Shown: positions 6,850-24,135 of the stretch, in pieces
Layout of the letters: each line of letters opens with the position of its first letter
Position numbering within the stretch: position 1 is the first letter of the stretch
Notes under the pieces: generated by a model
Seen by the model: only the letters and a program-made list of their open reading frames with translations
Databases searched by the model: none
What the model was told of the DNA's origin: nothing
Program-made: the position numbers and the translations under genes
Assembly: GCA_003162245.1 (NCBI GenBank)
Contig: PMMM01000104.1
Coordinates: 1-38,020, forward strand
Direction: 5' to 3'
DNA length: 38,020 nucleotides
Source of the DNA: Phycisphaerales bacterium
GTDB lineage: Bacteria > Planctomycetota > Phycisphaerae > UBA1845 > Fen-1342

Positions 6850-6943
6850 GGTTGGCCGATATGATACCGATCTTTGCGGCGGCGCGCCACGCCCCGCAGA
6901 ACCCCGCGCGGATGCGCTGGGTGACCAAAGTTGGGAGTACGAC

Positions 6944-8059
6944 GTGAACCGCGAAATCAGTCTTTCCGCCCAGGACATCACCCAAGCCGAAATCGACGCC
7001 GTCGTCGCCGTTATGCGCTCCGAGCGCCTCAGCCTCGGCCCCCGCATCCCCGAGTTCGAGGCCGAATTCACCAAACGCCTCCGCGTGAAGCACGCCATCG
7101 CCTGCTCCAGCGGCACCGCCGGCCTCCACATGTGCTGGCGGGCCCTCGGCGTCGGCCGCGGCGACGAGGTGATCACGACGCCGTTCTCTTTCATCGCCTC
7201 CAGCAACAGCATCATGTTCGAGGGTGCCAAGCCGGTCTTCGTCGACATCGACCCGCAAACCTGGCAGCTCGACACCGCCCGCGCCGCCGCCGCCATCACC
7301 CCGCGCACCAAGGCCCTGCTACCCGTCGACGTCTTCGGCTGCACGCCGGACATGGACGCGATCTGGACCATTGCCCGCCGGCACCACCTCCGGGTGCTTG
7401 AAGATTCCTGCGAAGCCCTCGGCGCGACCTACCAAGGCCGCCCTTGCGGCACCATCGGCGAGGCCGGGGTCTTCGGCTTCTACCCCAACAAGCAAATGAC
7501 CACCGGCGAGGGCGGCATGGTCGTCACCAACGACGACGACCTCGCGTTCCTCATCCGGTCGTTCCGCAACCAGGGCCGCGACCCCGAGGGCGGCTGGCTG
7601 GCTCACCCGCGGCTCGGCTTCAACTACCGCATGAACGACATGCAGGCCGCGATCGGCACCGTGCAGATGCGCCGCCTAGACGAGATTCTCGCGAAGCGCG
7701 ACCGCGTCGCGCGGCTCTACCTAGAGCGCCTCAAGGACGAGCCGCGTCTCTCGACGCAGCGCGTGCTGCCCCAGACGCACATAAGCTGGTTCGTCTTCGT
7801 CGTCCGCCTTAGCGACCACTACGCGCAGTCCGACCGCGATCGCATCCTCGGGCAGCTCCGCGCCAAAGGCATCGGCTGCAACGTCTATTTCCCCGCGATC
7901 CACCTCCAGCCGTTCTACCACACCGACCTCGGCTACAACCCCGGCGATTTTCCCATCACCGAGGCCCTTTCGCAGCGGACGATGGCCCTGCCGTTTCACA
8001 ACCACCTGACCGAATCCGACGTCGACTACGTCGTGACGACTCTCCGCGCGCTACTGTAG
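6944..8059 (+). CDS. DegT/DnrJ/EryC1/StrS-family PLP-dependent sugar aminotransferase
   Basis: A 371-residue protein of usual family length. It has the SSGTAGLH phosphate-binding region (54-62), FVDIDPQTWQLD, the cofactor-ring Asp in VLEDSCEALGA (about 154), and GFYPNKQMTTGEGG with Schiff-base Lys183, followed by GFNYRMNDMQAAIG. These enzymes transfer an amino group from glutamate to a nucleotide-linked keto-sugar, feeding O-antigen, glycan or glycolipid synthesis. The start is GTG 6944, chosen because GGGAG lies 6 nt upstream and because homologues begin close to this MNREISLS segment. A divergent exporter and a downstream envelope cluster fit production of an amino sugar for export. The exact keto-sugar cannot be read from sequence. 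Confidence 0.88.
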   Translation: MNREISLSAQDITQAEIDAVVAVMRSERLSLGPRIPEFEAEFTKRLRVKHAIACSSGTAGLHMCWRALGVGRGDEVITTPFSFIASSNSIMFEGAKPVFVDIDPQTWQLDTARAAAAITPRTKALLPVDVFGCTPDMDAIWTIARRHHLRVLEDSCEALGATYQGRPCGTIGEAGVFGFYPNKQMTTGEGGMVVTNDDDLAFLIRSFRNQGRDPEGGWLAHPRLGFNYRMNDMQAAIGTVQMRRLDEILAKRDRVARLYLERLKDEPRLSTQRVLPQTHISWFVFVVRLSDHYAQSDRDRILGQLRAKGIGCNVYFPAIHLQPFYHTDLGYNPGDFPITEALSQRTMALPFHNHLTESDVDYVVTTLRALL

Positions 8060-8585: not shown

Positions 8586-8801
8586 ATGGCGGAAAGCGTG
8601 TACAAGGTCATCGAGCTGGTCGGGACGAGCGAGAAGTCGTGGGAGGATGCGGCCAAGAACGCGGTGGAAACCGCGGCCAAGAGCCTCAAGGACCTCCGCA
8701 TCGCCGAAGTGATGAAGCTCGATCTGCGCGTCGAGAACGGGAAGGTGGTGGCTTACCGGGCCCGAGTCAGCCTGTCCTTCAAATACAGCGCCGGCAAGTA
8801 G
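8586..8801 (+). CDS. Dodecin, flavin-storage protein
   Basis: A 71-residue protein, the normal dodecin length. MAESVYKVIELVGTSEKSWE, the helix DAAKNAVETAAKSLKDLR, and the closing strands AEVMKLDLRVENGKV and YRARVSLSFKY match the beta-alpha-beta-beta fold. Trp19 of the SW pair is the residue that stacks on bound flavin in characterised dodecins. The protein assembles into a hollow dodecamer that binds riboflavin, FMN or FAD in the cytoplasm as storage or photoprotection. The ATG at 8586 has AAAGGAG seven bases upstream. It is probably transcribed alone, since a separate promoter-like site precedes the next gene. Confidence 0.93.
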   Translation: MAESVYKVIELVGTSEKSWEDAAKNAVETAAKSLKDLRIAEVMKLDLRVENGKVVAYRARVSLSFKYSAGK

Positions 8802-9101: not shown

Positions 9102-10232
9102 ATGACAGCAGCGCTCCATCGAGTGTTTATCGCGGGCACGGGCGCGTTCCTGCCCAATGACCCGATCCCGAATGAGCGCATCGACGACATTCTGGGACGG
9201 TTGACGGACGCGCCCGAGCGAGTGCAGGGGTTTCTGAAAAATGTGGGCCCCAAGATGCTCGAAAGCAGCGGCATCGAGTGCCGCCACTTCGCCATCGACC
9301 CCAAAACCCTGTGCCTGACCCACACGGTCGCCACGCTGGGAGAAGAGGCGGCCCGGCCGGCGCTCGCCGCGGCGGGCCGCAAGCCGACCGACGTCGAGTT
9401 GCTCGTGCTGGCCTCCCCCAACTTTGACCGCAGCACGCCGCCCACCTCGGCGGTCTTGCAGGAGCGGCTGGGCATCGAGCGCTGCGCTGAGATGGAAATC
9501 CACTCCAACTGCTCGGGGGTCGGCAAGGCGCTCCAGATCGCGTACGACTCGCTCCAGCTCGGGCGTTACAAGAACGCCTTGGTCGTGATCTGCCAGCTTT
9601 CCAGCGTTTACCTGCGGAACTGCTACTTCAACCAAGCGGTGATGAACAAGACGCAGGCGGCACTGCGCTACATCCTCGCCGACGGCAGCGGTGCGATTTT
9701 CCTCCAGGCCGCCGAGGCCGGCCACAAGGGGCCGCTCCCCCGCGAGGTGCTCGGCACCTATGTCGAGTCCATCGGCGGGAAAATGGAGCCGGGCATGACC
9801 GCCGGCGGCGGCGTCGCGGACCTGGTCGAGCCGGACAGGCAGGTCCAGGCGGTCTACGAGCGCGGGCTGCATCACCTGGATCAGGATTTCGCCGCCGTCA
9901 ACCGCAATGCCGGCCCCTTCCTGCTCGAGGGCGCGCTCCGCATGTTGAACCAGCTCGACATCGACCCGGCCAAGGTCGATCACTATGTCTGGTCGATCCC
10001 GACCATGCAGCTCTACAACGGCAACATCGAGCAGTTCCAGACCCGGCTTCACGCCCCGCTCGCCAAGATGATGTTCCGCGCGCGCAACACGGGCTATTGC
10101 GGCGGCGCTTCGCTGCTCCTGCACTTCGACGAGATGGTCCGGGCCGGCGAGATCAAGCCCGGCCAGACCGTCGTGCTGCACTCGGTGGAGTCGAGCAAGT
10201 GGATGACTGCCGGCTTCGTCGTGCGCGGGTAA
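9102..10232 (+). CDS. KAS III-like 3-oxoacyl-ACP synthase / thiolase-fold acyltransferase
   Basis: A 376-residue protein. The N-terminal FIAGTGAFLPND and the later ELLVLASPNFDRSTPP are typical of the KAS III thiolase fold. The nucleophile is Cys137 in HSNCSGVGKALQ. A C-terminal NTGYCGGASLLLHF supplies the conserved Asn region. The segment where KAS III enzymes normally read PHQAN is here VDHYVWSIPTMQLY, with no His at the expected place. The enzyme may therefore not decarboxylate malonyl-ACP, but act as an acyl-transferring or non-decarboxylative condensing enzyme. The ATG at 9102 is preceded by GAGG. First gene of the same-strand cluster. Family call is firm; reaction is open. Confidence 0.82.
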   Translation: MTAALHRVFIAGTGAFLPNDPIPNERIDDILGRLTDAPERVQGFLKNVGPKMLESSGIECRHFAIDPKTLCLTHTVATLGEEAARPALAAAGRKPTDVELLVLASPNFDRSTPPTSAVLQERLGIERCAEMEIHSNCSGVGKALQIAYDSLQLGRYKNALVVICQLSSVYLRNCYFNQAVMNKTQAALRYILADGSGAIFLQAAEAGHKGPLPREVLGTYVESIGGKMEPGMTAGGGVADLVEPDRQVQAVYERGLHHLDQDFAAVNRNAGPFLLEGALRMLNQLDIDPAKVDHYVWSIPTMQLYNGNIEQFQTRLHAPLAKMMFRARNTGYCGGASLLLHFDEMVRAGEIKPGQTVVLHSVESSKWMTAGFVVRG

Positions 10233-10368
10233 GCTTCACCTCTCCGCATCACGGGGACGCGCGGGACGTAGAACCCAGGCTGTCAATCGTGCTTCCTGTA
10301 CGCCGGCCGCGATACGCGCGTGCCTACGTTTCCCGTTTTCGTCATCGCCCCTAACGGAGGCAAACGCA

Positions 10369-11181
10369 GTGTCCACAACGGATGAGGTTTCCGCCGTGTC
10401 GGTGGCCTCCTCGACCGCGCCGCACGGCGATCAACGAAGCGGTCTTCGCTGGTTCCTTGTCCTCGACCTCTTCACGCGGCTCTTCATCTGGTGCGTGGCG
10501 ATGTTCCTGGCCGCCGCCGCGTTCTCCGCGCTGCGGATCTGGCCCCTGGGCAGCCCGCTGGCGGCGGACCTGCCCCAGGTCTGGCGGTGGGCGGTCGCGA
10601 CCGGCCGCTTCGTCATCCTGTTTAACCTGGTTTACGTCGCAGAGCTGGTCGTGCTGCGCCTGCCGATCCCAACGCCGCACGAGGGACGGTACGACACGCG
10701 CAGCCGCATCCCGGGCCGGCAGGTCTTGTGGTCGTGCCTGCTCGCGGTGCTGACAAAAGCGCGCTACGAGGCCCCCTTCCCCGGCTTCCTCGTCTTCCAC
10801 TTTGCGAACCTCCCGCCGCTCGTCTGGCTGATGGGGCCGGTCTTCGGCCCGCGCTCGCGGTCGGCGTACGTCACCGATCCGCACGTGCTCGATCCGCACC
10901 TGGTCACGCTCGGCCGAAATGTCGTGATCGGCTTCAACGCGACCGTCGCGGGGCACTACCAGGAGCGCGACGCCGTCATCTTCAGACGCACCGTCATCGA
11001 GGACGACGTGCTGGTTGGCGGGCACGCCGTGATCTTCGGCGGCGTGCACATCCGCAGCGGCTCGATGATCGGGGCCGGGGCGGTGGTCCTGCCCGGCACG
11101 ACCGTCGGCCCCAACGAGTTTTGGGCGGGCGTCCCAGCGCGTAAGATTCGCGACTTGCCGTCGGTCGAAACGGCGGCGTGA
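10369..11181 (+). CDS. Membrane-anchored left-handed beta-helix (hexapeptide-repeat) acyltransferase
   Basis: A 270-residue protein. Two hydrophobic segments (about 27-52 and 86-106) precede a C-terminal hexapeptide-repeat domain (about 160-250) with the sequence VIGFNATVAGH, a VIEDDVLVGGHAVIFGGVHI run and the coil SMIGAGAVVLPGTTVGPN, ending in the cap WAGVPARKIRDL. LbH enzymes use acetyl- or acyl-CoA/ACP to acylate sugars or other alcohols and amines, working as trimers. The membrane anchor suggests a lipid-linked or membrane-carried acceptor. The start is GTG 10369 with GGAGG eight nt upstream. A 136-bp gap separates it from the KAS III gene and 16 bp from the next gene. Similar LbH-plus-helix modules occur at the end of some NRPS proteins, which fits the condensation-like genes downstream. 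Confidence 0.78.
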   Translation: MSTTDEVSAVSVASSTAPHGDQRSGLRWFLVLDLFTRLFIWCVAMFLAAAAFSALRIWPLGSPLAADLPQVWRWAVATGRFVILFNLVYVAELVVLRLPIPTPHEGRYDTRSRIPGRQVLWSCLLAVLTKARYEAPFPGFLVFHFANLPPLVWLMGPVFGPRSRSAYVTDPHVLDPHLVTLGRNVVIGFNATVAGHYQERDAVIFRRTVIEDDVLVGGHAVIFGGVHIRSGSMIGAGAVVLPGTTVGPNEFWAGVPARKIRDLPSVETAA

Positions 11182-11197
11182 ACCCCGGACGCCTGGA

Positions 11198-12985
11198 ATG
11201 ACCGTCGCACCGTCGAGCCGCCGCACGACACTCGTCGCCGCCCTGCTCATCGCCGCCGGCGTCGCAAACAACCTGCCCTCCTTCCGTTGGGGCTTCATCT
11301 GGGACGACTTCATCCACCAAGCCGTTCTGCGCGGCGATCTGCCCGGCGCCCGCCTGCCGCGCTGGAACCTCTATGACTTCGCCATCACACCCCGCCCCGG
11401 CGATGCGACGTTCGACGCCGGTATAGCGCCCTGGTGGACCGACCCCGACTTCAAGGCCCGCTTTTTCCGCCCCGTCGCCAGCCTGACGATCTGGCTCGAC
11501 TACGCGATCTACCACAATTGGGCCCCGGGCTACCACGTGACAAGCCTCGCGCTGCTGGGCGTGTTTCTCGTTCTGGCGTGGAAGCTGTACTACGCCCTGG
11601 GTGCTCCGCTGCGCGCGGCCCTGTGGGCCCTGGCGTTCCTGGCGCTCGACGACGTGCACTGCATGCCCGTCGGGTGGATCGCCAACCGCAACACGCTCCT
11701 CGCCGCTTTGTTCGTCGTTGCGACGGTCCTGTGCGTCGACCGTAATCGTGAAACCCGGCGCGCACGCTGGTTGCTCGCCGGCTTGGCGTGCTTTCTGCTC
11801 GCGTGCGGATCAAAAGAATCGGGTGTCGCGGCCCTGCCGATCATCGGCGCGTACGTTTTGTTCTTCGGCGGCCCCGCCGGGACGGAGACGCTCCGGGCAC
11901 GCGTGCACCGTGTGGTCAGTTCGCGCGTCCTGTGGTCGTTTGGGCTCGCGGCGGTGGCATATGCGGCGTTCTACGTCGCCGCCGGGTACGGATCGCGCTC
12001 CGTGACCTACCCAGTCCCGTGGCATGATCCGATGCGCTTCTTGTCGCGACTGGCCTGGGTCGTCCCGGCGGGGCTCATGCACCTGACCTACGCGGCCGTC
12101 ACGGACTTCATGGCGTTGAACGCCCGCTGGGCGTGGCAATTGCTCACCGCCAGCGCAATCCTGCTACCGGCCGCGGGCTTCGTGCTCGCGCGGGGGCTCA
12201 GGGGGTCGCGCGTGGCCGGCTTGGCCGTCGCTTGGGCCCTCTTCGCCCTGCTGGCCGAGGGCGGTGGCGACATCTCCGACCGTCTGTGGATGAATGCCGC
12301 CGTCGGGACCGCCCTCCTGTTCGGCCTGTTCCTCGACCGCCTCCCGCCGCTCCGCCAACGACTGACGCTGGGGCGCGCGGCGGCCCTGACGATGGGCGGC
12401 GTCCTGATCCTGACCGGGATTGTGGCCGCGGTCCCCATGACGAAGATCCGCCGCGACCTGTGTTCCTCGTTGGGCGGCACGGACCGCGCGAACAGCCTGA
12501 ACGCCGACATCGACATCGATCCGGCGCACCCCTTGGACGTATTCGCGCTGAACAGCCCGTCCAGCATGGGGGCCATGAGCCTCTCGCTCACGTGGCGGGT
12601 GGGCCACGACGATCTCCACACGCGCATCTTCCCGCTGCAACTGGGTCGCCGCCCGCTGACCTGGACCCGCGACGACGAGCGGACGATGACGCTGACCAGC
12701 GGGGCAATCCCGTTCCGCGCCAACCCATTTGAGCGCGTCTTTTGCACCCGCGCGGCCCCGCCAGCCGGCACGACGTTCACGACCGCCGCCTTCACGGCCA
12801 CCGTCCTGGCGTCGGAGCCCGCCGGCTTCCGCACGGTCCGTTTCCAGTTCCACAAGAGCCTGGACGACCCGTCCTATCGCTTCCTGGCTTGGCGAGACGG
12901 GCGTCTTTGCCGGACCGCGCCACCGCCGGTGGGCGACACCGTGCAGGTTCCCGAGGTGCCGCCGCCGACCCCGTACACGCCGTAG
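11198..12985 (+). CDS. GT-C-like polytopic membrane protein 1 (predicted lipid-linked-sugar glycosyltransferase)
   Basis: A 595-residue protein with about 10-12 membrane helices in residues 10-415 and a soluble C-terminal domain. After TM1 comes an acidic loop, RWGFIWDDFIH, then FFRPVASLTIWLDYAIY and PVGWIANRNTLLAALF. This is the layout of GT-C transferases such as the TMTC/PMT and ArnT groups, where the first-loop acidic residue is catalytic. These transfer sugar from polyprenyl-phosphate carriers on the outer face. The C-terminal domain (about 420-595) has a block VRFQFHKSLDDPSYRFL that recurs in the other GT-C-like protein at 19190-21082. The ATG at 11198 has GGA just upstream. The GT-C assignment rests on topology and motifs, not on a matched family, so activity is tentative. 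Confidence 0.65.
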   Translation: MTVAPSSRRTTLVAALLIAAGVANNLPSFRWGFIWDDFIHQAVLRGDLPGARLPRWNLYDFAITPRPGDATFDAGIAPWWTDPDFKARFFRPVASLTIWLDYAIYHNWAPGYHVTSLALLGVFLVLAWKLYYALGAPLRAALWALAFLALDDVHCMPVGWIANRNTLLAALFVVATVLCVDRNRETRRARWLLAGLACFLLACGSKESGVAALPIIGAYVLFFGGPAGTETLRARVHRVVSSRVLWSFGLAAVAYAAFYVAAGYGSRSVTYPVPWHDPMRFLSRLAWVVPAGLMHLTYAAVTDFMALNARWAWQLLTASAILLPAAGFVLARGLRGSRVAGLAVAWALFALLAEGGGDISDRLWMNAAVGTALLFGLFLDRLPPLRQRLTLGRAAALTMGGVLILTGIVAAVPMTKIRRDLCSSLGGTDRANSLNADIDIDPAHPLDVFALNSPSSMGAMSLSLTWRVGHDDLHTRIFPLQLGRRPLTWTRDDERTMTLTSGAIPFRANPFERVFCTRAAPPAGTTFTTAAFTATVLASEPAGFRTVRFQFHKSLDDPSYRFLAWRDGRLCRTAPPPVGDTVQVPEVPPPTPYTP

Positions 12986-13092
12986 GGCGTGTGAGCATCG
13001 CCCGGCTGTGCCACATTCACGGCCTTGTCTTGGCTTGACCAACGCGCCGGGCGCCACGACACTCCGTCGCGGCCAGAGGAGTGCACGGACGC

Positions 13093-14460
13093 ATGGCGCG
13101 GTATCAAGATCCCGATCCGTTGGACCTGCTCTTCTTCGCGGCTGACGCAGCCAGCCGTCGCGCGCGGCTACTCGGTGCCAACATCCACCTCGTGACCGAG
13201 GTCGAAGGCGAGCTGGACCTCGGCCGGCTCAAACAGGCGATCGCGGCCTTGCACCGCGAGTATCCGGTCACCGCGGCGAAACTGGTGACTGGCACGTTCA
13301 CCGGACGCCCGCGGTGGCGGCTCGATATGCCGCCCCCGCATCCAAATCACGTCGTGCAGGTCCACCAAATTCAGCCACCGACGCCAGACCAGTGGCGGAC
13401 GGAGTTCGAGCGGCTGTTCGCGACTCCCATTGACGCCGCGAGGTTCCCTCCGCTCCGGTTTCACGTCCTCCGCGGGCTCGCGCAGGGGGATGTGCTGGTC
13501 ATGCGTTGGCCGCACGCGCTGATGGACGCCCGCGGCGGGGGCATGATGTCGGAGGAACTGGACCGTTTGTACGAGGAAGCGCCGGACGTGAATACGTTGT
13601 GCAGCGCCGGCGACGAAACCCGCGACGACTTCGGGGCGCTGCTGGCCCGCACGACACTCCGTTGGCGCGTCCAGACGTTCTTCGGGTCAGTTCTCCGGCC
13701 CAACCGACAGCGGAGGCGTTTCAGCCAGCTCGTCACGGAGCCCATCCCGACGGACCTGGGGCGACTGCGCTGCGTATTCCGCCATTTTCCCGCCAGCGAA
13801 ACCAAACGGATCATGGATAACGCCGTGCGGATCTGCGGCGTGGCGCGGTTTCCAGACTTCTTGCGGGCTTGTGCGCTCCGCGCGCTGCACGAGGTGATGC
13901 CGCACCCGGTGCCGCCGGACACGTTGTACACGACGCTGAACCTGCTTGGGCGGCGGAATCGGCGACAGCCGCTGCGTTGGTGCTGCAACTTGACGAGCGC
14001 ACTGCCGCTGGCCGTACCGGCCGGGCTCATTCACGACCGGCAGCGGGTCGCCGACCTGTTCCGGGAGCAGACCGGAAACCAGCTCGCGTCGGACACGCCG
14101 CTTCGGCACGCCGCGATCCTGTGGCTGTTCACGCGCCTGCCAACGGCCTGGCTCGCAGCCGGGATCAAGACGCGGGTCAGCTCCGGCCGGCGCGTGACGC
14201 CCTGGCTGGGTATGGGGCAGACTCCGTCGCTGCCGCTGGGCCTGATGGGGCCCAGTACACGTCCGATGGCCACTTTTTGCGGGTGCAAGTTACTGAACTA
14301 CTATGGCGGCCGGCCGCCGCTGCCGGACACCGGGTTTGCCCTGGATGCCAACGTGACGGCCGAGCGGCTGAACATCACGGGGGTGTGTTATGAGAAGCGC
14401 GTCCCGGTTGCGACTTTGACTAACCTCATCGACCGGCTCGCCGGCGTGCTGCTTGAGTAA
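13093..14460 (+). CDS. Condensation / WS-DGAT superfamily acyltransferase 1
   Basis: A 455-residue protein with the CoA-dependent acyltransferase fold. It begins DPDPLDLLFFAADAASRRAR, has strands around VTEVEGELDLGRLKQAIAAL, and carries the active-site motif MRWPHALMDARGGG with His141 and Asp145 (HxxxD). In this superfamily the His is the general base that lets an alcohol or amine attack an acyl thioester, giving esters, waxes or peptides. It is shorter than PapA or WS/DGAT enzymes by little and lacks NRPS partner domains. The start at ATG 13093 gives the same N-terminus as its paralogue; GAGGAG lies about 11 nt upstream. A GTG at 13081 is the alternative. It overlaps the next gene by 8 bp. 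The superfamily call is good; substrate is unknown. Confidence 0.75.
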   Translation: MARYQDPDPLDLLFFAADAASRRARLLGANIHLVTEVEGELDLGRLKQAIAALHREYPVTAAKLVTGTFTGRPRWRLDMPPPHPNHVVQVHQIQPPTPDQWRTEFERLFATPIDAARFPPLRFHVLRGLAQGDVLVMRWPHALMDARGGGMMSEELDRLYEEAPDVNTLCSAGDETRDDFGALLARTTLRWRVQTFFGSVLRPNRQRRRFSQLVTEPIPTDLGRLRCVFRHFPASETKRIMDNAVRICGVARFPDFLRACALRALHEVMPHPVPPDTLYTTLNLLGRRNRRQPLRWCCNLTSALPLAVPAGLIHDRQRVADLFREQTGNQLASDTPLRHAAILWLFTRLPTAWLAAGIKTRVSSGRRVTPWLGMGQTPSLPLGLMGPSTRPMATFCGCKLLNYYGGRPPLPDTGFALDANVTAERLNITGVCYEKRVPVATLTNLIDRLAGVLLE

Positions 14461-15832
14461 GGTCTTGGCCCACTACCAGTACCCCAACCCGCTCGACCTG
14501 CTGTTCTTCGCGGAGGAGCAGGCCACGAGGCGTGCCGGGCTGCCCGGCGTGCACGTCCACATCCACCTCGAGCTCCGCGGACAGGTCGATGTCGCGGGGC
14601 TGCGCCGCGCGCTGCTCGCCCTGTACCGCGTGTATCCGACGGCCGGGGCACGGCGCGAGTTGGAGATCCGCACCGGCCGCCCGCGCTGGCGGCTGGACAG
14701 CCCGGCGCCGGACATGCGCCGCGTCGTGCAACTGCACGCGGTTACACCACCCACCGCCGCTCAATTGCAGCACGATGTCGAAGCACTCTTCGCCGCACCA
14801 CTCGACATTGACGGTCTGCCGCCCGTCCAGTTCCACGTCTTTCGCGGGCTGCCCCGCGGCGATGTGGTCGTGATGCGCTGGCCGCACGCCCTGACCGACG
14901 GACGCGGGGCTTACTCGCTCCTGGAAGAGCTGGCCCGCCTGTACGATGAGGCTCCCGATCCCGCGGCCTTGACCAGCGCCGGCGACGAACGGCGCGATGA
15001 CTTCGGCCGGATGCTCGCCGACTACCCCATTTGGCGGCGCCTCCAGGCCGTACTCGAGCTGTGCCGTCCAGCACACCCAGGTTGCGGCCCGGTCCTGCAA
15101 CTGGCCCCCCGACCGGGGGTGACCTCCCCAGGCCCCATGCACTTCGTTCTGCGACACCTGACGCCGGAGCAGACGGTGCAGGTTGGCGACAGGATGCGGC
15201 GGGTCGCGGGCACGTCACCATCGGGCGACTATCTGCGCGGCTGTGCGCTGCACGCCCTGCATGAGCTGATGCCGAAGCCCCAGCCATCGCACGGGTTGTA
15301 TACCGTCATGTTGCTGCTCGACAATCGGCGTCGACAGGGGCCGGCCATGTGCTGGAACCTGACCAGCGCCTTGCCGCTCATAGTGCCGGCCGAGGCTGCG
15401 GGCGATCCGGTGGAGGCAACCCGGGTGATCCACCGTCAGACGATCGCCCACGTCCGCGCCCGCACCGGCTTGCAATACTACGCCGCTCTTTCGCTTCTGA
15501 TGTACCCGCCCACGGCGTACGTCGCCGCGGTCCTGCGCGCGACCATGCTCTCCGGCCGCCGCCACACATCCGGCCTCATGCTGGCGGGCACGCCTTCCCT
15601 GCGGCTGGACTTCATCGGCCCCTTCTCGCGCCCCTTGCCGCGCTTCTGCGGCGCCGAACTTCACAACCACTACGGCTACTCGACACTCCTACCGGAGCCT
15701 GGCTTCGCCCTGCACGTCAATCTGACCCACGACCGGTTGAATATCATCGGCGTGTGCTTCGAATCGCGCGTGCCGGTGCCAACGCTGACGGCGCTCATGG
15801 ATCGCTTCGTTGCCACGCTCCTGGACGCCTGA
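14453..15832 (+). CDS. Condensation / WS-DGAT superfamily acyltransferase 2
   Basis: A 459-residue paralogue of the preceding protein. NPLDLLFFAEEQATRRAGLP, the WRLDSPAP region, MRWPHALTDGRGAYSLLEEL (His145, Asp149, Gly150) and the C-terminal LNIIGVCFESRVPVPTLTAL all have counterparts there. Its HxxxDG is closer to the canonical condensation motif. Tandem non-identical copies suggest two acylation steps on one acceptor, or a heterodimer. The start is a TTG at 14453 inside the end of the upstream gene, implying translational coupling. A second TTG at 14465 is possible; no ATG is available that keeps the conserved N-terminus. Confidence in the family is good, in the exact start low. Confidence 0.74.
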   Translation: MSKVLAHYQYPNPLDLLFFAEEQATRRAGLPGVHVHIHLELRGQVDVAGLRRALLALYRVYPTAGARRELEIRTGRPRWRLDSPAPDMRRVVQLHAVTPPTAAQLQHDVEALFAAPLDIDGLPPVQFHVFRGLPRGDVVVMRWPHALTDGRGAYSLLEELARLYDEAPDPAALTSAGDERRDDFGRMLADYPIWRRLQAVLELCRPAHPGCGPVLQLAPRPGVTSPGPMHFVLRHLTPEQTVQVGDRMRRVAGTSPSGDYLRGCALHALHELMPKPQPSHGLYTVMLLLDNRRRQGPAMCWNLTSALPLIVPAEAAGDPVEATRVIHRQTIAHVRARTGLQYYAALSLLMYPPTAYVAAVLRATMLSGRRHTSGLMLAGTPSLRLDFIGPFSRPLPRFCGAELHNHYGYSTLLPEPGFALHVNLTHDRLNIIGVCFESRVPVPTLTALMDRFVATLLDA

Positions 15833-15945
15833 GCAACAGGATCGGACGCCACGCTCGGTTGACAGGCGCCCCTGCGTCGGGAATCATGGGTCAACTGCGG
15901 TGGTCCCGGTGTTGGTGCGGTCGGCCACTGGTGCGTGGAGACCCT

Positions 15946-16521
15946 ATGACGACAGACATCCGGTCGAGATCCGACCCGGTGCACGCCGGCACCGGCGGGC
16001 TTCGCGCGTGGCTCGACCGGATTCCGCTCGCGCTGCGGATGCTGGTGTACAGCATTCTGTTCCTGGCCGCCGTGCTCGTGCTGCTGCCCTGGCTGGCGAG
16101 CCGGATCGACGTGCACTGGCCCCGCGCCCGCGTCGAGATCGGTTCAGTGCGCTGGCTCGGCGTGATCCTCTTCTCGATCTGCATGGGCCTCTATGCGACG
16201 GCGTCATTGCTGCTTTCCCGCCACGGCCGCGGCGCCTACGTCGAGTTCGACCCGCCCAGAGAATTCGTCGCAGTCGGGCCGTTCCAGTGGTGCCGCAACC
16301 CGATCGCCGGCAGCTTGCTGGGGATGCTGCTCGGCGAGGCGCTCGCGTTCTCGTCCACTGGCATCTTCCTGCTGTTCCTCGTGGCGCTGCCGCTCGCGCA
16401 GCTTCAGGTCGTGTGCCTGGAGGAGCCCCTGCTGCGCAAGCGATTTGGCCAAGCCTACGAGGAGTACGTGCGGCGAGTGCCGCGCTGGCTCCCGGGCACT
16501 CCGCGCAGGGCCGGCCCATGA
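15946..16521 (+). CDS. ICMT/PEMT-like integral membrane methyltransferase
   Basis: A 191-residue protein with hydrophobic segments near residues 27-50, 65-86, 115-130 and 132-150. The conserved C-terminal pattern of isoprenylcysteine carboxyl methyltransferases and phospholipid N-methyltransferases is present: GPFQWCRNPIAGSLLG, then EEPLLRKRFGQAYEEYVRRV and PRWLP. These use SAM to methylate a carboxyl, amine or lipid headgroup at the membrane. ATG 15946 has GGAG six bases upstream. The stop overlaps the next start as ATGA. A 113-bp gap separates it from the acyltransferase gene. In this setting it could O- or N-methylate the cluster's lipid product; that is inference. Confidence 0.78.
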   Translation: MTTDIRSRSDPVHAGTGGLRAWLDRIPLALRMLVYSILFLAAVLVLLPWLASRIDVHWPRARVEIGSVRWLGVILFSICMGLYATASLLLSRHGRGAYVEFDPPREFVAVGPFQWCRNPIAGSLLGMLLGEALAFSSTGIFLLFLVALPLAQLQVVCLEEPLLRKRFGQAYEEYVRRVPRWLPGTPRRAGP

Positions 16522-17564
16522 ACGTAACCATCACCGGCGCGACCGGCTTCTTCGGGCACGCTTTGCTCCAGGTCGCGCTACGCCAGGCGGATTTGGTGCG
16601 CGCCCTCGTACGCCGGCCCGCAGACGACACGCGGCTCCGAGCCCTCGGTGCCCACACGATCCGCGGCGACCTCTCCGCGCCGGGCGGCTGCCGCGGCTTA
16701 GTTGAGCCGGGCGACATCGTGGTTCACGCCGCCGCCCGCGTCGAACTGGTTGGGCGCTGGCCGGAGTTTCAGCGCGGCACCGTGGATATCACCCGGCACC
16801 TGCTCGACGCCGCCCTGCCGCAGAAACCGGCGTGTTTCGTGTACGTCAGCTCGGCGGCCGTGTACTCGCCCAACGCCGCGACTCCGCTCATGGGCGCCGA
16901 CCACACCCCCACACGGCCCACACCTGACAACCTCTACGGTCGCGCGAAGCTGGTCGCCGAGCGCCTCGTGCAGCGGCGCTGCGACGAAGCGGGCTGCCCG
17001 TGGACCATCGTGCGGCTGGCGTTCCTGTACGGCCCCCGAAATCAGACGCTGCTCGACCGCCTGGAGGTCCTGCACGCGCGCGGCCGGTTGTGCCTAGTCG
17101 GCGACGGACAAAACCGCATCGCGACCCTGTACAACGATGACGCCGCCGCCGCTGTATGGGCCGCCGCCACGCATCCGGCCGGTGCCCGGAAGGTCTACGA
17201 CGCGGCCAGCGCCGAACGGGTGACGCAAGAGCAGTTCGTCAACGCGCACGCGGCCCTGCTGGGCTTGCCGCCGCTTCGGCAACGGATCCCGCGGCCAGTG
17301 GCGTACGCGGCGGGCTGGGTGGCGGAGTTCGTCTCCGTGCTCGCTGGACGTCAACCGGCCATCAGCCGTTGTACGGCCCGACTGATGGGCACCGACCAGG
17401 TCGTAGACGCGTCCCGCTTGCAAGCCGAGACCGGTTGGTGCCCGCGCGTGAGCTTCACGGACGGCATGGAACGGACGCGGGCGTGGTGGTGCGACCGAAC
17501 CGCAGCCGTGCGCCAGCCCCTTCACTGGCCCGCACAGCTCGCAGGGGGAAAAGAGTCGGCATGA
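16518..17564 (+). CDS. Extended SDR, NAD(P)-dependent epimerase/dehydratase (3-beta-HSD-like)
   Basis: A 348-residue protein. It has the nucleotide site TGATGFFG (residues 6-13), the conserved DIVVHAAA strand, the catalytic Ser in VYVSSAAVYSP (about 111-112) and YxxxK as YGRAK (Tyr140, Lys144). The C-terminal part (RVTQEQFVNAHAALLGLPPL) is like 3-beta-hydroxysteroid dehydrogenase-type SDRs and OleD-like reductases. It would oxidise or reduce a hydroxyl or keto group on a sugar or acyl chain. It overlaps both neighbours with ATGA junctions, so translation is coupled from the methyltransferase through to the phosphatase-superfamily gene. With only a KAS III-like enzyme and no OleB or OleC, an olefin pathway is not supported. 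Confidence 0.85.
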   Translation: MNVTITGATGFFGHALLQVALRQADLVRALVRRPADDTRLRALGAHTIRGDLSAPGGCRGLVEPGDIVVHAAARVELVGRWPEFQRGTVDITRHLLDAALPQKPACFVYVSSAAVYSPNAATPLMGADHTPTRPTPDNLYGRAKLVAERLVQRRCDEAGCPWTIVRLAFLYGPRNQTLLDRLEVLHARGRLCLVGDGQNRIATLYNDDAAAAVWAAATHPAGARKVYDAASAERVTQEQFVNAHAALLGLPPLRQRIPRPVAYAAGWVAEFVSVLAGRQPAISRCTARLMGTDQVVDASRLQAETGWCPRVSFTDGMERTRAWWCDRTAAVRQPLHWPAQLAGGKESA

Positions 17565-19159
17565 CAGCCCTCCGTCCCAACGTGCTGATGGTGGTTGCCG
17601 ATTGCGGCCGCGCCGACAAGTGGGTCGATCCGGGCCGGCGCACCAGGACACCGACCATCGACGCCCTGCGCCAGTCCGGCCTCACGTTCCCTACTGCGAT
17701 CGTCGAGATGGCCTGCACCACGCCCAGCTTCACCGGCTTGCTCACGGGCCGGTACAGCCCGCGACATGGTGTGCACATGGTCTGGGGCGACCGGTTGGCC
17801 GACTCCGTGCCGATGCTCACGGAAGTACTGGCCGCCAACGGCTACCACACCTACGCCGAAGTCACCGGCCCGCTGTTGCCCGAGATGGGGCTGGCGCGCG
17901 GCTTCGAGCACTACGAATATCGCGCCCCCTGCGACTACCTGCATACACATTGGGGCGACGAGTTGGTCGCCCGGCTCCGCGGCGGCCACTATCGCGCGCC
18001 ATGGTTCCTGCTGCTGCACCTCTGGGAGCTACATCCCCCGCGCCAAGTTCTGCGCGGTTTCGATCACGCCGAGTTCGGACGTAGCGACTACGAGCGCGCC
18101 GTCTCCAGCCTCGACGCCCAACTGGCGCGCGTCTTCGATGCCGCCGGCGACGATACGTTCGTCCTTTTCACCGGCGATCACGGCGAAAAGTCCGCCGACG
18201 AGCCGTACCGCGACGGGACCGCCGTGGCCTACGCCCGCAAGCTGCTGCGCATCGACGCGATCGAGGGCATGGTCCCTTATCACGTCGCCGGCTGGGCCGG
18301 ACCTAGCGTCCTGCAACAGCTCTACCGGGCCGGCGCCCCCCTGCTGCGCGACCTGCGGCTCAGCGACATCCGCTTGCGCACGCGGGCCAAGCTCTGGACG
18401 CGCATCCGCGACCGGCTGCGGCTGTTGCTGCTGACGCCCTACCTGACCGCGCGCGACCTGTTGGCGCTGGCTAAGCCCGCGCGCCTGACCGCGATGCTCA
18501 AACGCAGCGGTCTGCTCGACGCCGAACGCTCCCGCCGTAAGGTCGATCGCTTCAAACACTGGCTCGGTGAGGAACGGCTGCTCGATATGCACTTGCGGAT
18601 GTGGCTGAACTCCTACAAGCACAACCTGCATGAAGGCCACATGCTGCACGTCTACGATTTCCTCGTGCGCGTCCCGCTGGTGCTGCGCTGGCGCGGCCGG
18701 CTGCCCGCCGGCATCGCCTGCCCGCGCATGGTGCGCCTCGTGGACGCCCTGCCAACCGTGCTCGATCTCCTGGACATCGATCCGCGGACCATCGACGGCC
18801 TCGACGGCGTATCCTTCCGCCCGCTGATCGAGAACCGCCCCTGGCAGCCGCAGCCCGCGTATCTCTCCGTCTCCGGCGTGCCGCGTGACCTCGAACTGCG
18901 CGGCGTCCGGACCGAGGAATACAAATACACATACGGGCCGCACAACGCCGAGTTGCCCGAAGAGCTGTACGACCTGCGCCGCGACCCAGCCGAGGCCGAC
19001 AATCGGGCCGACGCGGACGCCGCGCTGTGCCGCCAGCTTCGGCAATTGGCCAACCAGTTCGTGCCGGCTCAACCCCGACTCGCGACCGCCCCGCTCACCA
19101 TTTCGCCCGACGAGCAGGCGCGCGTCGAGCGCCGGCTGCACGAGCTGGGCTACTTGTAA
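17561..19159 (+). CDS. Sulfatase-like alkaline-phosphatase-superfamily hydrolase/transferase, Thr at nucleophile site
   Basis: A 532-residue protein. Metal ligands appear in NVLMVVADCGR (Asp14) and FTGDHGE. The active-site loop reads MACTTPSFTGLLTGRYSPRHG: the residue that is formylglycine-forming Cys in type I sulfatases aligns with Thr53 (TTPSF), and the following Arg is Phe. Thr nucleophiles are used by phosphoglycerol- and phosphoethanolamine-transferases (LtaS, EptA) of the same superfamily, but this protein has no N-terminal membrane helices. An unusually long Arg-rich helical insert spans about residues 235-350. The C-terminus has a HEGHMLHVYDFLVRVPLVLR block usual in sulfatase-like folds. 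No signal peptide, so it probably acts in the cytoplasm or at the inner leaflet. The ATG overlaps the SDR stop. Confidence 0.75.
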   Translation: MTALRPNVLMVVADCGRADKWVDPGRRTRTPTIDALRQSGLTFPTAIVEMACTTPSFTGLLTGRYSPRHGVHMVWGDRLADSVPMLTEVLAANGYHTYAEVTGPLLPEMGLARGFEHYEYRAPCDYLHTHWGDELVARLRGGHYRAPWFLLLHLWELHPPRQVLRGFDHAEFGRSDYERAVSSLDAQLARVFDAAGDDTFVLFTGDHGEKSADEPYRDGTAVAYARKLLRIDAIEGMVPYHVAGWAGPSVLQQLYRAGAPLLRDLRLSDIRLRTRAKLWTRIRDRLRLLLLTPYLTARDLLALAKPARLTAMLKRSGLLDAERSRRKVDRFKHWLGEERLLDMHLRMWLNSYKHNLHEGHMLHVYDFLVRVPLVLRWRGRLPAGIACPRMVRLVDALPTVLDLLDIDPRTIDGLDGVSFRPLIENRPWQPQPAYLSVSGVPRDLELRGVRTEEYKYTYGPHNAELPEELYDLRRDPAEADNRADADAALCRQLRQLANQFVPAQPRLATAPLTISPDEQARVERRLHELGYL

Positions 19160-19189
19160 TGACGGCAAATCACGGGTAGCCAAGAGCGC

Positions 19190-21082
19190 ATGCCAGACGC
19201 CGCAACCACGCCGATCGCACCCGTCGTGGCGGGCTCCACGACGCGCGGCCCGCGGCTCCGCTTCTGGCAGCTTGCCGTGGGTCTGCTGCTCGTGGTCGTC
19301 GCCGTGGACGGCCCGTCGCTGTGGGACGGCCTGTTCTTCGACGATCACTGGCACCGCGCCACGCTGCGCGAGTACGGCTGGGGGTTCTCCGACCTCGTCG
19401 AGGCCGCGACGTTCGACCTCCCGGGCCGGCTCACACACCTGTGGTGGCAGGAGCAGCCGCTCCAGTGGCGCTATGCCCGCCCCGTCGCCATGCTGTGCAT
19501 GAAGATCGAGTATGTACTCACCGGCGGCAGCCCGATCGCGATACACGCCTGCGCCTTGCTATGGCACTGGCTCACGACGCTGCTCGTCTGCCGAATGGCG
19601 ATATGGGCACTACGACACCGCGGCTGGGCGTTTCTGGCCGCCGCCGTCTTCGCCATCAACCCGCATTCGGTCTTCGCCGTAAGCTGGATCGCCGCCCGCA
19701 ACGCGCTCGTCGGCGGGTTCTTCTTCGTCGCGGCGGTGCTGGCGTACGTGCGCGCCTCGTTCCACGACCGGGCGCCGCGGCCGCAGCGCTGGTCGTCGTG
19801 GCTGGTGGCCGCGCTGGCGCTATGGGCGTTGGCGCTGTTCAGCCGCGAGACCGGCATCGTCTTCCCGGTCGTGGTCGTCGTGCTCGATCTCGCATTCGGC
19901 GGCTGGCGGCACACGCTGCGGCGGTGGCCGGTGTACGTCGTCATCGGGCTGCTGAGCTGCGCATACCTGTACTGGCGGCTGTTCGTCTTCCCCGTCCACA
20001 GCGTGCCGGACATCTACTTCACCGCGCCGGCGGGGCTCGCGTACGTGCCGTGGGCGGCCAGCAAGCTGCTGCACCTGATCTTCGCACAGATCTTCTACAC
20101 GCCGATGTTCCTCGGGCTGGCGACGTACGGCGGCGGCGGGGCGACGCACGCGTGGGCGTACGTGTTCATGGTCGTGCTCGTCGGGCTGATCGCGGCGTGG
20201 TTTGTCGTCGCGTCGCGGGGCGTGGCGGGTCGGTGGCTATGGCCGGCGTGGACCGTCGTCGCGTTCGTGCCGGTGATTCCGGTCTTCGTGATGGCGCATT
20301 TCAGCTATTTGCCGGCGATCGCGTATGCCGTGATGGTCACGATCCTGCTGATGGGGCTGCGCGGGCGATGGCGGACGGTGGTTGCGGGGCTCGTCGTCGG
20401 GGCGATGCTGTGGTCGCACTTCGTGTACCGCAACGTCTGGCGCGGGATCGTGCGGTCGGAGCAGTTGATCTATGCCGATATCCGCTCCACGACGCCCGCG
20501 CCGCCGGTGGCGACGAAGCTGTTCTTCATCAATCTGCCGGTCGCGGGGATCTATGCGCCCGTCGCCCTGCGCGAGGCGTGGGGGCTGGATCGCCTCGACG
20601 GCTATGTGCTGACGTTCGCGCCGCAGCCGCTGATGATGCGCGAACCGAGCCGCATCGAGCAGCTCAACGACCGCGAGCTGCTGGTGTCGGCGGACGAGCC
20701 GGGGTACTTCGGCGGCCTCGCGGGGCGGATGCTGCTGGACGGGATGCGGCCGGGGCATCCGCTGCACGCCGGCACGTTCGTGCCCGGTGACGAGTTCGAT
20801 ACGACGGTTGTGGCGGCGGGCGACGAGGGGATCACGAAGCTGCGCTTCTCATTCCACAAGCCGCTGGCGAGCGCGGATTACTGCTTCTTCGTCTCGACGC
20901 CGGAGCGGCCCGCCGCCCGGGTGGAGTTCACGGGGCCGGGGACGGTCGTCACCGCCGCGCCGCCGGCGGAAGCGTGCCGTGAGAAGTACGCCGGCTGGCT
21001 GGCGGCGCGGGACCAGTATTTCTGGATCGTGGACTTCACGCAGCGGTTCGTGCAGTCGGATGTACTGCTGACGAAGAAGTAG
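19190..21082 (+). CDS. GT-C-like polytopic membrane protein 2, paralogue of the 11198 gene
   Basis: A 630-residue protein with about ten membrane helices between residues 24 and 430 and a soluble C-terminal domain. Motifs parallel the first GT-C-like protein: LFFDDHWHRATLREYGW after TM1, YARPVAMLCMKIEYVL, INPHSVFAVSWIAARNALVG. The C-terminal domain repeats the FSFHKPLASADYCFF block. Acidic DD in the first outer loop fits a GT-C catalytic residue. It is the last gene of the run, 30 bp after the phosphatase-superfamily gene. The pair probably adds two different sugars or acts on two acceptors. No clear terminator follows; the next 30 bp are tandem CAGCT repeats. Activity is tentative. Confidence 0.65.
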   Translation: MPDAATTPIAPVVAGSTTRGPRLRFWQLAVGLLLVVVAVDGPSLWDGLFFDDHWHRATLREYGWGFSDLVEAATFDLPGRLTHLWWQEQPLQWRYARPVAMLCMKIEYVLTGGSPIAIHACALLWHWLTTLLVCRMAIWALRHRGWAFLAAAVFAINPHSVFAVSWIAARNALVGGFFFVAAVLAYVRASFHDRAPRPQRWSSWLVAALALWALALFSRETGIVFPVVVVVLDLAFGGWRHTLRRWPVYVVIGLLSCAYLYWRLFVFPVHSVPDIYFTAPAGLAYVPWAASKLLHLIFAQIFYTPMFLGLATYGGGGATHAWAYVFMVVLVGLIAAWFVVASRGVAGRWLWPAWTVVAFVPVIPVFVMAHFSYLPAIAYAVMVTILLMGLRGRWRTVVAGLVVGAMLWSHFVYRNVWRGIVRSEQLIYADIRSTTPAPPVATKLFFINLPVAGIYAPVALREAWGLDRLDGYVLTFAPQPLMMREPSRIEQLNDRELLVSADEPGYFGGLAGRMLLDGMRPGHPLHAGTFVPGDEFDTTVVAAGDEGITKLRFSFHKPLASADYCFFVSTPERPAARVEFTGPGTVVTAAPPAEACREKYAGWLAARDQYFWIVDFTQRFVQSDVLLTKK

Positions 21083-21088
21083 CTCATA

Positions 21089-21120
21089 AAGCTGTCAGCT
21101 CTCAGCTATCAGCTTTCAGC
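21089..21120. repeat. CAGCT-type short tandem repeat
   Basis: About four degenerate 7-8 bp units (TCAGCTCTCAGCTATCAGC and variants) start directly after the last gene of the envelope cluster. It is low-complexity with no coding role seen. Confidence 0.6.
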
Positions 21121-21176
21121 CACCAGGCCGTGCCCGGCGGCGCGGGGCGGGCGAGGCCGGCCAAGAGTATCGCGGT

Positions 21177-21450
21177 GGGGCGATAACAACGCGGTTCTGA
21201 GCCTCCGGGGCGAAGAGTATCAAGAGTATCGCGTTTGTACGGGGCGTAAATGAGACTCTTGACCGGGTGGCGGCGGCGTGCGCGGTTTTTGGCGCGGGGC
21301 CGACACGCCGGGCGGGGGAAGATGCTCAAGGGGGCGCCCGAGGGGGCGATAATATCGCGTTTTTTGGCGCTGGAACGTAAGGTTCTCAAGATGCTCATGT
21401 TTGTAGGGGTCGTAAATGGGAATCTTCCGATAACCAGCGGCGGCCGGCGG
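21177..21450. repeat. Diverged direct repeat, about 110-bp units, two copies
   Basis: Units at roughly 21177-21290 and 21337-21450 share GGGGCGATAA near one end, then GTTTGTA.GGGG.CGTAAATG and a CTT motif at constant spacing, with moderate identity between. Extra GAGTATC units lie in the first copy. Read on the minus strand both could encode similar peptides (IYDPYKHEHL and IYAPYKRDTL), but in different frames and without a plausible gene around them. I treat it as a DNA repeat. Confidence 0.5.
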
Positions 21451-22025
21451 GGGCGACGAGCGGCGACAGGTGGAAGGTGACAAGCGACACGGGACAATGG
21501 CGGCATCGCGCATCCCAGCTTTCCGTTCTGCGTTTTCGGCGAGCCAGGCTCGGGCGGCGGCGCGGAGACGGGGAATGGGCCGCGTCGGGCCTAGATAGTA
21601 TAGACGAGGAATGGCGAGGCGGGGAAGAAACCGGGGGGTTTGCGCGAGATTGGCGACCGCTGCGCGATTTTGTGCGTTCTTGGCGGCGGGTGGCGGAGTT
21701 TCACCACGAAGGACACGAGGGGCACGAAGGAAACGCCCTTTGTCAGAACTCGGCAAAGCAAGGCCGGGAATCACCGTGGAGGACGGAAGGACGCGAAGCA
21801 GAAGAGGGCGGGCGGGAGGGCGGAAATAGCGAATGGCCAATGGCGAATGGCGAAAAACGAGGGAGGGCGGAGGGCACGGCGGATTGTGGATGTTGTCCCG
21901 GCGCGCCGGGATTGGATTTTGGATTGGGACGGCCGGAGGGGTTGACGCGGCCGCGCCGGCACGACGGGAACCGCTTGTCATCCGCGTACGGCGAGCGCAG
22001 GAACTGGGTGACTGTCCCGCTGTGC
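21451..22025. other. Gene-free stretch with low-complexity repeats
   Basis: It contains CACGAAGGA-type 9-bp tandem units at about 21707-21735 and AATGGC-type units at about 21831-21857. ORFs across it have Arg/Pro/Gly-rich composition typical of unselected high-GC frames. I see no gene. Confidence 0.5.
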
Positions 22026-22661
22026 CTAATCGTCGACTCCCTTATATCTGCAAGCAAATTTACCCCACTCTGAATTATGTCGCAAAGCACTCGTTGCTTC
22101 CTTTATAAGAAGATACTCCGGTATCGCGACGGAACCACGACCATTACATCCTGCGCACCTATGTCCTTTAATTCTCCCACTACCAGTGCATTTGTCACAT
22201 TTCTTGTTTTGTGGAAGTCGTCGTATTTCACTTTCCACCGCTCTTTCATACGCATTTCGACAACGACGACAAAGAGCTTCATCGACGTAATATTGAGCAC
22301 TGAACGGTTTACCACAGCGATCGCAATTCCTATCTGGCCCAGTCCGCCGTTCATCCAAACCAAAGAAATAGTAGCACACTGCACCGATTATCCCTATTAC
22401 GAACGAAGCCGCTAAACCCAGTGTTACATTTAACACTGTTAGTTTACCACACAAGTGGAGTATTCCAAATACGACCGACCAGAATGCAAGATCGACAAGA
22501 AACATCCCTGGCTTGCTAGCGCGCTTGTCGGAAAGTAGTTTCTCGTAGATGAACCCCGGTGCAGTAAATACAAGGGCAATGACAGTGACAGCGCCAGACC
22601 CCACATAGCTGCCAACTACGAAACCGCCGAAGATAGTCAGCAGGGCGATGAGTAGCGGCAT
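22026..22661 (-). CDS. Small membrane protein with DnaJ-like zinc-finger motifs
   Basis: A 211-residue protein. The N-terminal half is hydrophobic with about four helices (MPLLIALLTIFGGFVVGSYV, VTVIALVFTAPGF, FLVDLAFWSVVFGILHLC, LGLAASFVIGIIGAVCYYFF). It is followed by CDRCGKPFSAQYYVDEALC with a further CRRC, and CDKCTGSGRIKGHRCAGCNG, the last resembling DnaJ CxxCxGxG zinc repeats. The cytosolic half probably binds zinc. The function is not recognised; similar modules occur in protein-folding or quality-control adaptors. ATG 22661 has AGAGGA at a good distance. Base composition is clearly AT-richer than the flanking genes, which suggests acquisition by transfer. It overlaps the tail of the decayed HAF frame. 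Confidence 0.65.
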   Translation of the reverse strand: MPLLIALLTIFGGFVVGSYVGSGAVTVIALVFTAPGFIYEKLLSDKRASKPGMFLVDLAFWSVVFGILHLCGKLTVLNVTLGLAASFVIGIIGAVCYYFFGLDERRTGPDRNCDRCGKPFSAQYYVDEALCRRCRNAYERAVESEIRRLPQNKKCDKCTGSGRIKGHRCAGCNGRGSVAIPEYLLIKEATSALRHNSEWGKFACRYKGVDD

Positions 22662-22875
22662 TGTGAGTCCTCTTGGGGATTACCTAACTGATAAGAAACT
22701 ACTCTTCTAACGATATTCGCGCTCAATCCAACACGGCGCTCTCCCGAATACCCGTATCCGAGCACCAGTGAGCCATCCGCAGACGCGGCTTCCCCGAGGG
22801 TGGGACCGTTCGCCATGCGCGCGAGACTTGACCCCATCTTATTCACGGCGCGCTCCGAGTCCGGCAGAGGCCAGC

Positions 22876-22942
22876 CCTGATTCGCCGAGTCAGGCCCTGC
22901 CCAGTTTTCGCCGCCCGCTGGGTCAAGTGCGCGCGGGCGGCG
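22876..22942. repeat. Two adjacent GC-rich palindromes inside the HAF remnant
   Basis: CCTGA-TTCGCCGAG-TCAGG at 22876-22894, and the stem CGCCGCCCGC/GCGGGCGGCG at 22909-22918 and 22933-22942. The HAF reading frame loses its repeat pattern exactly here, so this block is probably an insertion. Confidence 0.55.
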
Positions 22943-23141
22943 CCTGGCGCGTAGGAGTTTGTCGATCGTGAGGTTACGCGAAACACGAACCTGGAGGTGT
23001 GAATAAGGTGGGTTGACATTCCACCGGATTGCGTCCAGCGGAAGGGCTCGTAGGCAAGGTTAAAATCACTATATCCGACAACCACCGCCCCATCGGCCGA
23101 AACGCCGAGATCTTGGCCAAGAGCGACTAACAGAGCGCAGC

Positions 23142-23167
23142 GTGGGGCGGGCGTTCCTGCCCGCCGA
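23142..23167. repeat. Palindromic repeat, family F, in frame in the HAF remnant
   Basis: The stem GGGCGGGC-GTTCCT-GCCCGCC. On the minus strand it is read through in frame as RAGTPAPR and splits two HAF repeats without a stop. Confidence 0.6.
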
Positions 23168-23518
23168 ACGCGGGCGCAGAGGTCCGCACCGCTCGTTTTG
23201 ATAGGGGCTCTAAAGGAACTGCCGCCAGGCAGGTGCCCGAAACCCTCTAGTCCAGAGCCATTTACGGACCGAGAGGCCTCACCCGATGATGTGGAGCTGC
23301 TGACCCCCACGATCACCGAACCATCGGCGGATACCGCACAGGCTGAACCCTCGACATCTGGTTGGTGCGGATGTCCGACGCCTCGGAGACTGGGTTGGGC
23401 CGCGAAAACCAGTGCAGCGAGGCACAGGGCCCGCTTTGTCGCCCCGCCCGCGACCAAGTACGCGTGCATCAGAAACATTGACACGACCGCTTCTCCCCTC
23501 GACAACTCCGGTACTCCT

Positions 23519-23546
23519 AAGTTACACCTGACGCCGGCTGTGTCAA
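23519..23546 (-). promoter_or_regulatory. Promoter of the HAF remnant
   Basis: Minus strand TTGACA (23541-23546), 16-nt spacer, TAACTT (23519-23524). Predicted transcription starts near 23512, which favours the ATG at 23478 over the longer frame at 23592. Confidence 0.5.
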
Positions 23547-23664
23547 GCGTAAAAGGGGAGCGTAGGAGGACGAGAAAGAGAGGGACCGTCACGAATGGCG
23601 TTAACTTAAGCCGTACGTTCCGGCTTCCGCAGAGCTTGGCGTGGTTTAAAAGTCCGCCGCAGAA

Positions 23665-23694
23665 GTAGCGTCGGCCCCCCGTGGCCGACGTAGA
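23665..23694. repeat. Palindromic repeat, family B, intergenic copy
   Basis: A 30-bp element with arms CGTCGGCC and GGCCGACG around a CCCCGT loop region and flanks GTAG and TAGA. It is identical over all 30 bp, in inverse orientation, to 31047-31076 inside valS. Confidence 0.85.
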
Positions 23695-24077: not shown

Positions 24078-24106
24078 GACCGCGCGACATGAATGTCGCG
24101 GCTCCG
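24078..24106. repeat. Palindromic repeat, family C, copy 2
   Basis: A perfect inverted repeat CGCGACAT-GA-ATGTCGCG flanked by ACCG and GCTCCG. It matches copy 1 at 310-337 with two or three changes. It lies just downstream of the MqsA-like gene (minus strand). Confidence 0.75.
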
Positions 24107-24135
24107 ATACCTTGCGATTCTTGCGAGACAGTACG

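Follow-up and report, generated by a model that had tools for sequence, protein, structure and literature searches.

A conserved KAS III-like gene set in a planctomycete order with a possible role in envelope lipid biosynthesis

Introduction

Enzymes related to KAS III take part in several described pathways. In FabH-type enzymes, the Cys carries out transacylation, whereas the Claisen-like condensation depends on the His and Asn (PMC5724707). StlD and DarB, which act in the stilbene, dialkylresorcinol and flexirubin pathways, share the KAS III fold. The KAS III-like enzymes AbyA1 and RkD form tetronates, in clusters that carry glyceryl-transfer and ACP genes (PMC3625739). In the OleA/OleD olefin pathway, a KAS III-family enzyme is paired with a short-chain dehydrogenase (SDR). 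OleA retains the Cys-His-Asn triad. The mycobacterial phenolic glycolipids and PDIM are tailored by the acyltransferase PapA5 together with a ketoreductase, an O-methyltransferase and glycosyltransferases, and in the srs and bps operons a type III PKS adjoins an ICMT-like membrane methyltransferase.

The locus described here consists of nine genes in a window, meaning the whole 38-kb contig that was analysed, from the 4.76-Mb draft genome (97% complete) of a planctomycete in the Phycisphaerae. Its KAS III-like enzyme (KS) resembles StlD and DarB in fold, in a full-length profile match and in a conserved Cys nucleophile, but it is 21-25% identical to them, replaces the His and Asn with Ser and Tyr, scores far under their cut-offs and has no DarA-type partner in the cluster. 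AbyA1 and RkD represent the second-closest kind of solved structure. Like KS, AbyA1 has no counterpart of the FabH His in the alignment, but it retains the Asn, and the nine-gene cluster carries neither the glyceryl-transfer nor the ACP genes found in tetronate clusters. The pairing of KS with an OleD-like SDR recalls the olefin pathway, yet there are no OleB or OleC genes, and the SDR scores 135 bits against an OleD (2-alkyl-3-oxoalkanoate reductase) cut-off of 580, which leaves it outside that family. The likeness to PDIM and phenolic glycolipid tailoring lies in the set of activities and in a PapA5-like acyltransferase and is an analogy of logic: the cluster has no modular polyketide synthase, the mycobacterial methyltransferase and glycosyltransferase folds differ from those found here, and sequence kinship is claimed only for the acyltransferase superfamily. 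The pairing of KS with a membrane methyltransferase recalls the srs and bps operons, where, however, the condensing enzyme is a type III PKS instead of a KAS III-like protein. A first-pass annotation of this DNA knew of no characterised pathway with such a set, and none matching was found in the open-licence literature and databases searched.

Gene content of the locus

Gene calling and GC by codon position bear out the proposal that nine intact genes lie on the + strand from 9102 to 21082. Their GC content is 67-70%, and most of the remaining window is alike. The starts, which had been described as coupled, are so at three junctions only, AT1/AT2 (an 8-bp overlap), MT/SDR and SDR/SULF (both ATGA overlaps); elsewhere the genes are separated by gaps of 16-136 bp. 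Family searches agree with the families first assigned, namely a KAS III-like enzyme, an LbH acyltransferase, two HxxxD acyltransferases, a PEMT/ICMT-like membrane methyltransferase, an SDR and a member of the sulfatase/alkaline-phosphatase superfamily. No carrier-protein, regulator or resistance gene was found within the cluster.

KS (9102..10232, +) yields a predicted model with an AF2 pLDDT of 93.8. Its closest solved fold is StlD (Foldseek rank 1, TM 0.84), followed by AbyA1, and the top matches are all of KAS III type. This fold and a nucleophilic Cys137, invariant among relatives, make KS a member of the KAS III/thiolase superfamily. Of the Cys-His-Asn triad of StlD and DarB only the Cys is kept: in the KS relatives of the order Ser298 stands in place of StlD His302, and Tyr332 in place of the catalytic Asn. 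Tyr332, His134 and His257/258 are candidates for taking over the role of the missing pair. Distant planctomycete relatives likewise lack the His and carry the Tyr, and Bacteroidota DarB retains both His and Asn at the aligned positions. KS scores below the StlD/DarB cut-offs (NCBIfam NF005293 and NF053539; 109.3 vs 450 and 91.0 vs 550 bits), the genome-level StlD/DarB score is 89.8 vs 550 bits, and a KS relative from Bacteroidota scores 519 and 531 bits with the StlD/DarB models. The FabH model TIGR00747 gives 79.5 vs 292 bits, with the triad incomplete. By curated cut-off, KS is thus classed outside both the DarB/StlD and the FabH families. A dialkylresorcinol/flexirubin cluster was ruled out, as KS fails both the cut-offs and the triad and no DarA candidate was seen; a search of 41 genomes, run without a positive control, recovered no relative of a DarA-candidate protein. 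Because it has lost the His and Asn, KS fits acyl transfer or non-decarboxylative joining, and from its active-site residues we infer that it is probably an enzyme of this kind. It might also act solely as an acyltransferase or be unable to catalyse condensation.

In two families of the order, second KS copies (L023, L025, L041, L043, L046, L047, L055) have as neighbours not MT-SDR but a Ser/Thr protein kinase and an ECF sigma factor, and these copies may represent a regulated paralogue. In other planctomycete classes, KS relatives (L049, L050) lie amid genes for a 3-hydroxyacyl-CoA dehydrogenase, enoyl-CoA hydratases and a malonyl-transferase-like protein, a setting that suggests a different, polyketide-like pathway using the same KS fold.

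Three of the remaining genes encode acyltransferases. LbH (10369..11181, +) is a left-handed β-helix acyltransferase whose N-terminal half is hydrophobic. AT1 (13081..14460, +) and AT2 (14453..15832, +) are tandem paralogues with 46% identity. Invariant His145 and Asp149 of the HxxxD motif and a Pfam WS_DGAT_cat match above cut-off place them in the HxxxD PapA5/WS-DGAT superfamily, and PapA5 is the sole solved structure recovered by the AT profile (E 5e-11). They fall outside the wax ester synthase/DGAT family TIGR02946, which is matched over the N-terminal half only and at 40.3 vs 310 bits.

MT (15946..16521, +) is an integral-membrane methyltransferase of the isoprenylcysteine carboxyl methyltransferase/PEMT superfamily, as indicated by a Pfam PEMT match above cut-off, by the ICMT structures recovered with its profile and by an invariant RNP motif, EEP motif and V-RW-P end (the C-terminal SAM-site signature). 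It also matches the lipid A phosphate O-methyltransferase LmtA weakly (E 9e-4). SDR (16518..17564, +) is an extended short-chain dehydrogenase of the OleD/HpnA/3β-HSD-like kind with its cofactor and catalytic motifs kept (TGxxGxxG and Ser-Tyr-Lys). OleD is its nearest family, and its best NCBIfam scores are with OleD/HpnA-like reductases, not with nucleotide-sugar enzymes.

SULF (17561..19159, +) belongs to the alkaline-phosphatase/sulfatase superfamily and carries Thr at the formylglycine position (CTTPSF). Its close relatives all have TTPSF there, apart from TTPAF in one copy. A formylglycine-dependent sulfatase was ruled out, since the C/S-x-P-x-R motif is absent.

The two GT-C-like membrane proteins of the first-pass annotation were also recovered. 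Neither GTC1 (11198..12985, +) nor GTC2 (19190..21082, +) has a Pfam match above cut-off, and GTC2 matched no solved structure by sequence and gave nothing significant with Foldseek alone. In a VIA-align structure comparison of GTC2, the rows with Z >=6.7 (at least 6.7, and up to 10.8) are all GT-C enzymes (STT3, PMT, AglB, ArnT, Aft, Emb), an assignment made from a model of modest confidence (pLDDT 61.7). An invariant Asp-Asp occurs in both proteins (Asp36-Asp37 in GTC1); in GTC2 it is D51-D52, the acidic pair in the first periplasmic loop. With this fold and this pair, GTC2 qualifies as a GT-C glycosyltransferase-like protein, and GTC1 is distantly related to it, at 27-31% identity over some 200 aa.

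Conservation and co-occurrence

The nearest relative is a genus mate, an uncultured member of the Phycisphaerales whose genome comes from lake sediment and whose KS is 94% identical; a contig scan for KS relatives returned only this genome and a distant Bacteroidota DarB. It carries LbH-GTC1-AT-AT-AT-MT-SDR-SULF-GTC2 on one contig and KS-LbH on another, so that the set lies in matching order apart from a third tandem AT. The alignments contain no stop codons, and dN/dS is 0.08-0.27 for all nine genes, which are thus under purifying selection in this comparison.

For a broader view of synteny, genes were called in the surroundings of 51 KS relatives and grouped by clustering. On the same strand near these 51 KS genes, MT was found 32 times, SDR 28, GTC2 9 and SULF 6, and AT, LbH and GTC1 4 times each. 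KS, MT and SDR are linked in about 30 loci and form the core, and the nine genes are one arrangement of a looser set. For instance, one locus (L051) reads KS-MT-SDR-LbH-GTC1...AT...GTC2 and another (L052) KS-MT-SDR-SULF-GTC2-AT, and one genome of family f4 spreads its genes over three contigs, which carry LbH-GTC1-GTC2-AT-AT, MT-SDR-SULF and KS-MT. Because a near-complete set is rebuilt in these other arrangements, the window holds one packing of a shared set. The exact nine-gene order was seen only within the genus, and other families of the order carry pieces of it. The first-pass annotation had named a lack of joint conservation in other genomes as grounds for refutation; the synteny search that it called for found the set conserved together elsewhere, with pieces in several families, and left the proposal standing. 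In L022 and L024, a KS-MT-SDR-GTC2 operon is separated from an oppositely oriented AT gene by four GT28/UGT-like glycosyltransferase genes in tandem. In family f7, the divergent neighbours c3 (a mandelate-racemase/muconate-lactonising-type enzyme) and GntR (a regulator) were judged to be local synteny, not pathway.

Of 114 genomes from the order, 36 contain a member of the KS family; in a 392-genome sample across the phylum, the KS family appears in only 3 beyond the window's own. MT occurs in 35 of the 36 KS-positive genomes, the lone exception having a KS truncated at a contig edge, and in 0 of the 78 KS-negative ones. The corresponding figures are 29/36 vs 0/78 for LbH, 30/36 vs 2/78 for AT, 10/36 vs 0/78 for SULF and 13/36 vs 0/78 for the close GTC2 orthologue group (E<=1e-220). 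These counts ignore kinship, as genomes share ancestry and the p-values are neither independent nor corrected for phylogeny; the pattern nevertheless persists inside the window's own family (MT 10/10 KS-positive vs 0/17 KS-negative, LbH 7/10 vs 0/17) and thus reflects more than deep ancestry. Co-occurrence over 114 genomes therefore makes these genes one functional module. Family f7 keeps KS-MT-SDR, AT and LbH, the last two mostly unlinked to KS, so that adjacency alone would miss them. It lacks SULF and close GTC2 orthologues, and glycosylation and the phosphatase step are therefore not universal.

Flanking genes

An MsbA-like exporter (4651-6816, -) and a DegT aminotransferase (6848-8059, +) had been counted as parts of the system. 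Neither is found close to the cluster in the genus mate or recurs alongside the set in other genomes, so the amino-sugar element of the product originally envisaged, for which they were the evidence, is unsupported. The exporter that accompanies the KS core in families f4 and f5 is a different one, a divergent HlyD-ABC-MacB system. In the MsbA-like protein, the loop that follows the first membrane helix may contain a PDZ-like domain (weak Pfam match, E 0.04). A dodecin gene (8586-8801, +; E 4e-26) lies just upstream of KS, likewise in the genus mate. Downstream of the cluster, about 3 kb (21083-24135) with GC down to 0.59 contain no confident gene and no Rfam match, and an MqsA-like antitoxin gene follows at 24136-24627.

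Proposed pathway and alternatives

What stands of the first-pass proposal is a conserved, undescribed and envelope-lipid-like gene set, for which synteny is evidence and co-occurrence over 114 genomes the stronger evidence; the exporter, DegT and amino sugar do not stand. On balance, by a modest lean, we favour a pathway that builds and decorates a long-chain envelope lipid. This reading starts from the module and from the fold or family established for each product, and the order of reactions, the substrates and the product are proposed from these. KS would load an acyl chain on Cys137 and, bypassing the usual decarboxylative chemistry, join or transfer this chain to another acyl or lipid acceptor. 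SDR would reduce a keto group arising from this step, the membrane MT would O-methylate the product, and the PapA5-like AT and LbH acyltransferases would esterify free hydroxyls. The GT-C enzymes may use a polyprenyl-phosphate donor to attach sugar on the outer face of the membrane, and SULF, as a Thr-nucleophile phosphatase-superfamily enzyme, may remove or transfer a phosphate group. A membrane location is supported by the two multi-pass GT-C-like proteins, the ICMT-type MT and the HlyD-ABC-MacB exporter by the core in f4 and f5; lipid chemistry is supported by the ketosynthase-fold enzyme with its OleD-like reductase and by the PapA5-like AT. Counted against the envelope lipid are the lack of a carrier protein in the cluster and of SULF and close GTC2 in f7.

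Other products deserve consideration. The genes could instead make a secreted specialised metabolite, an acylated, methylated and glycosylated small polyketide (e.g., a pyrone, tetronate or cyclohexanedione) in place of a structural envelope lipid. StlD and AbyA1, the nearest folds to KS, make small-molecule metabolites, the distribution is patchy (36/114 genomes), and the distant KS relatives in other classes adjoin the 3-hydroxyacyl-CoA dehydrogenase, enoyl-CoA hydratase and malonyl-transferase-like genes described above. This alternative is nevertheless fairly unlikely: the GT-C-like pair, the membrane MT and the hydrophobic half of LbH point to a membrane-bound substrate, and the cluster has no carrier protein, regulator or resistance gene. 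Decoration of an existing envelope glycan or lipid A with acyl, methyl and sugar groups, with the KS fold acting purely as an acyltransferase, would suit a protein that retains Cys and not His or Asn, as well as the weak resemblance of MT to LmtA. GT-C, LbH and HxxxD enzymes are frequent in such loci. The SDR of the core, however, is an OleD/HpnA-like reductase by best score, and across the 51 KS loci the genes recognised as travelling with the set include no flippase, polymerase or nucleotide-sugar gene; we consider decoration decidedly unlikely.

A chance gathering of neighbours in one genome, with no functional unit, would accord with an exact order confined to the genus and with the scattering of pieces elsewhere. 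It is contradicted by the way KS, MT and LbH co-occur almost perfectly throughout the order, also in genomes where they are unlinked, and by repeated co-clustering in several families, and is hardly credible.

Significance

The envelope-lipid reading can be extended, tentatively and at less than even chances, to a new lipid class confined to a single planctomycete order plus a few scattered relatives, in which a KAS III-fold Cys working with a Ser/Tyr site in place of His/Asn would join or transfer acyl chains before reduction, O-methylation, double esterification and lipid-linked glycosylation. KS offers a test of whether a KAS III fold can handle acyl chains without the His-Asn pair, and KS-MT-SDR-LbH-AT provides a ready gene list for deletion or expression. 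The product could also act as a sediment lipid marker for the group. The module represents a lipid-type biosynthesis, undescribed in the sources searched, in a poorly cultivated group with little-known envelope chemistry.
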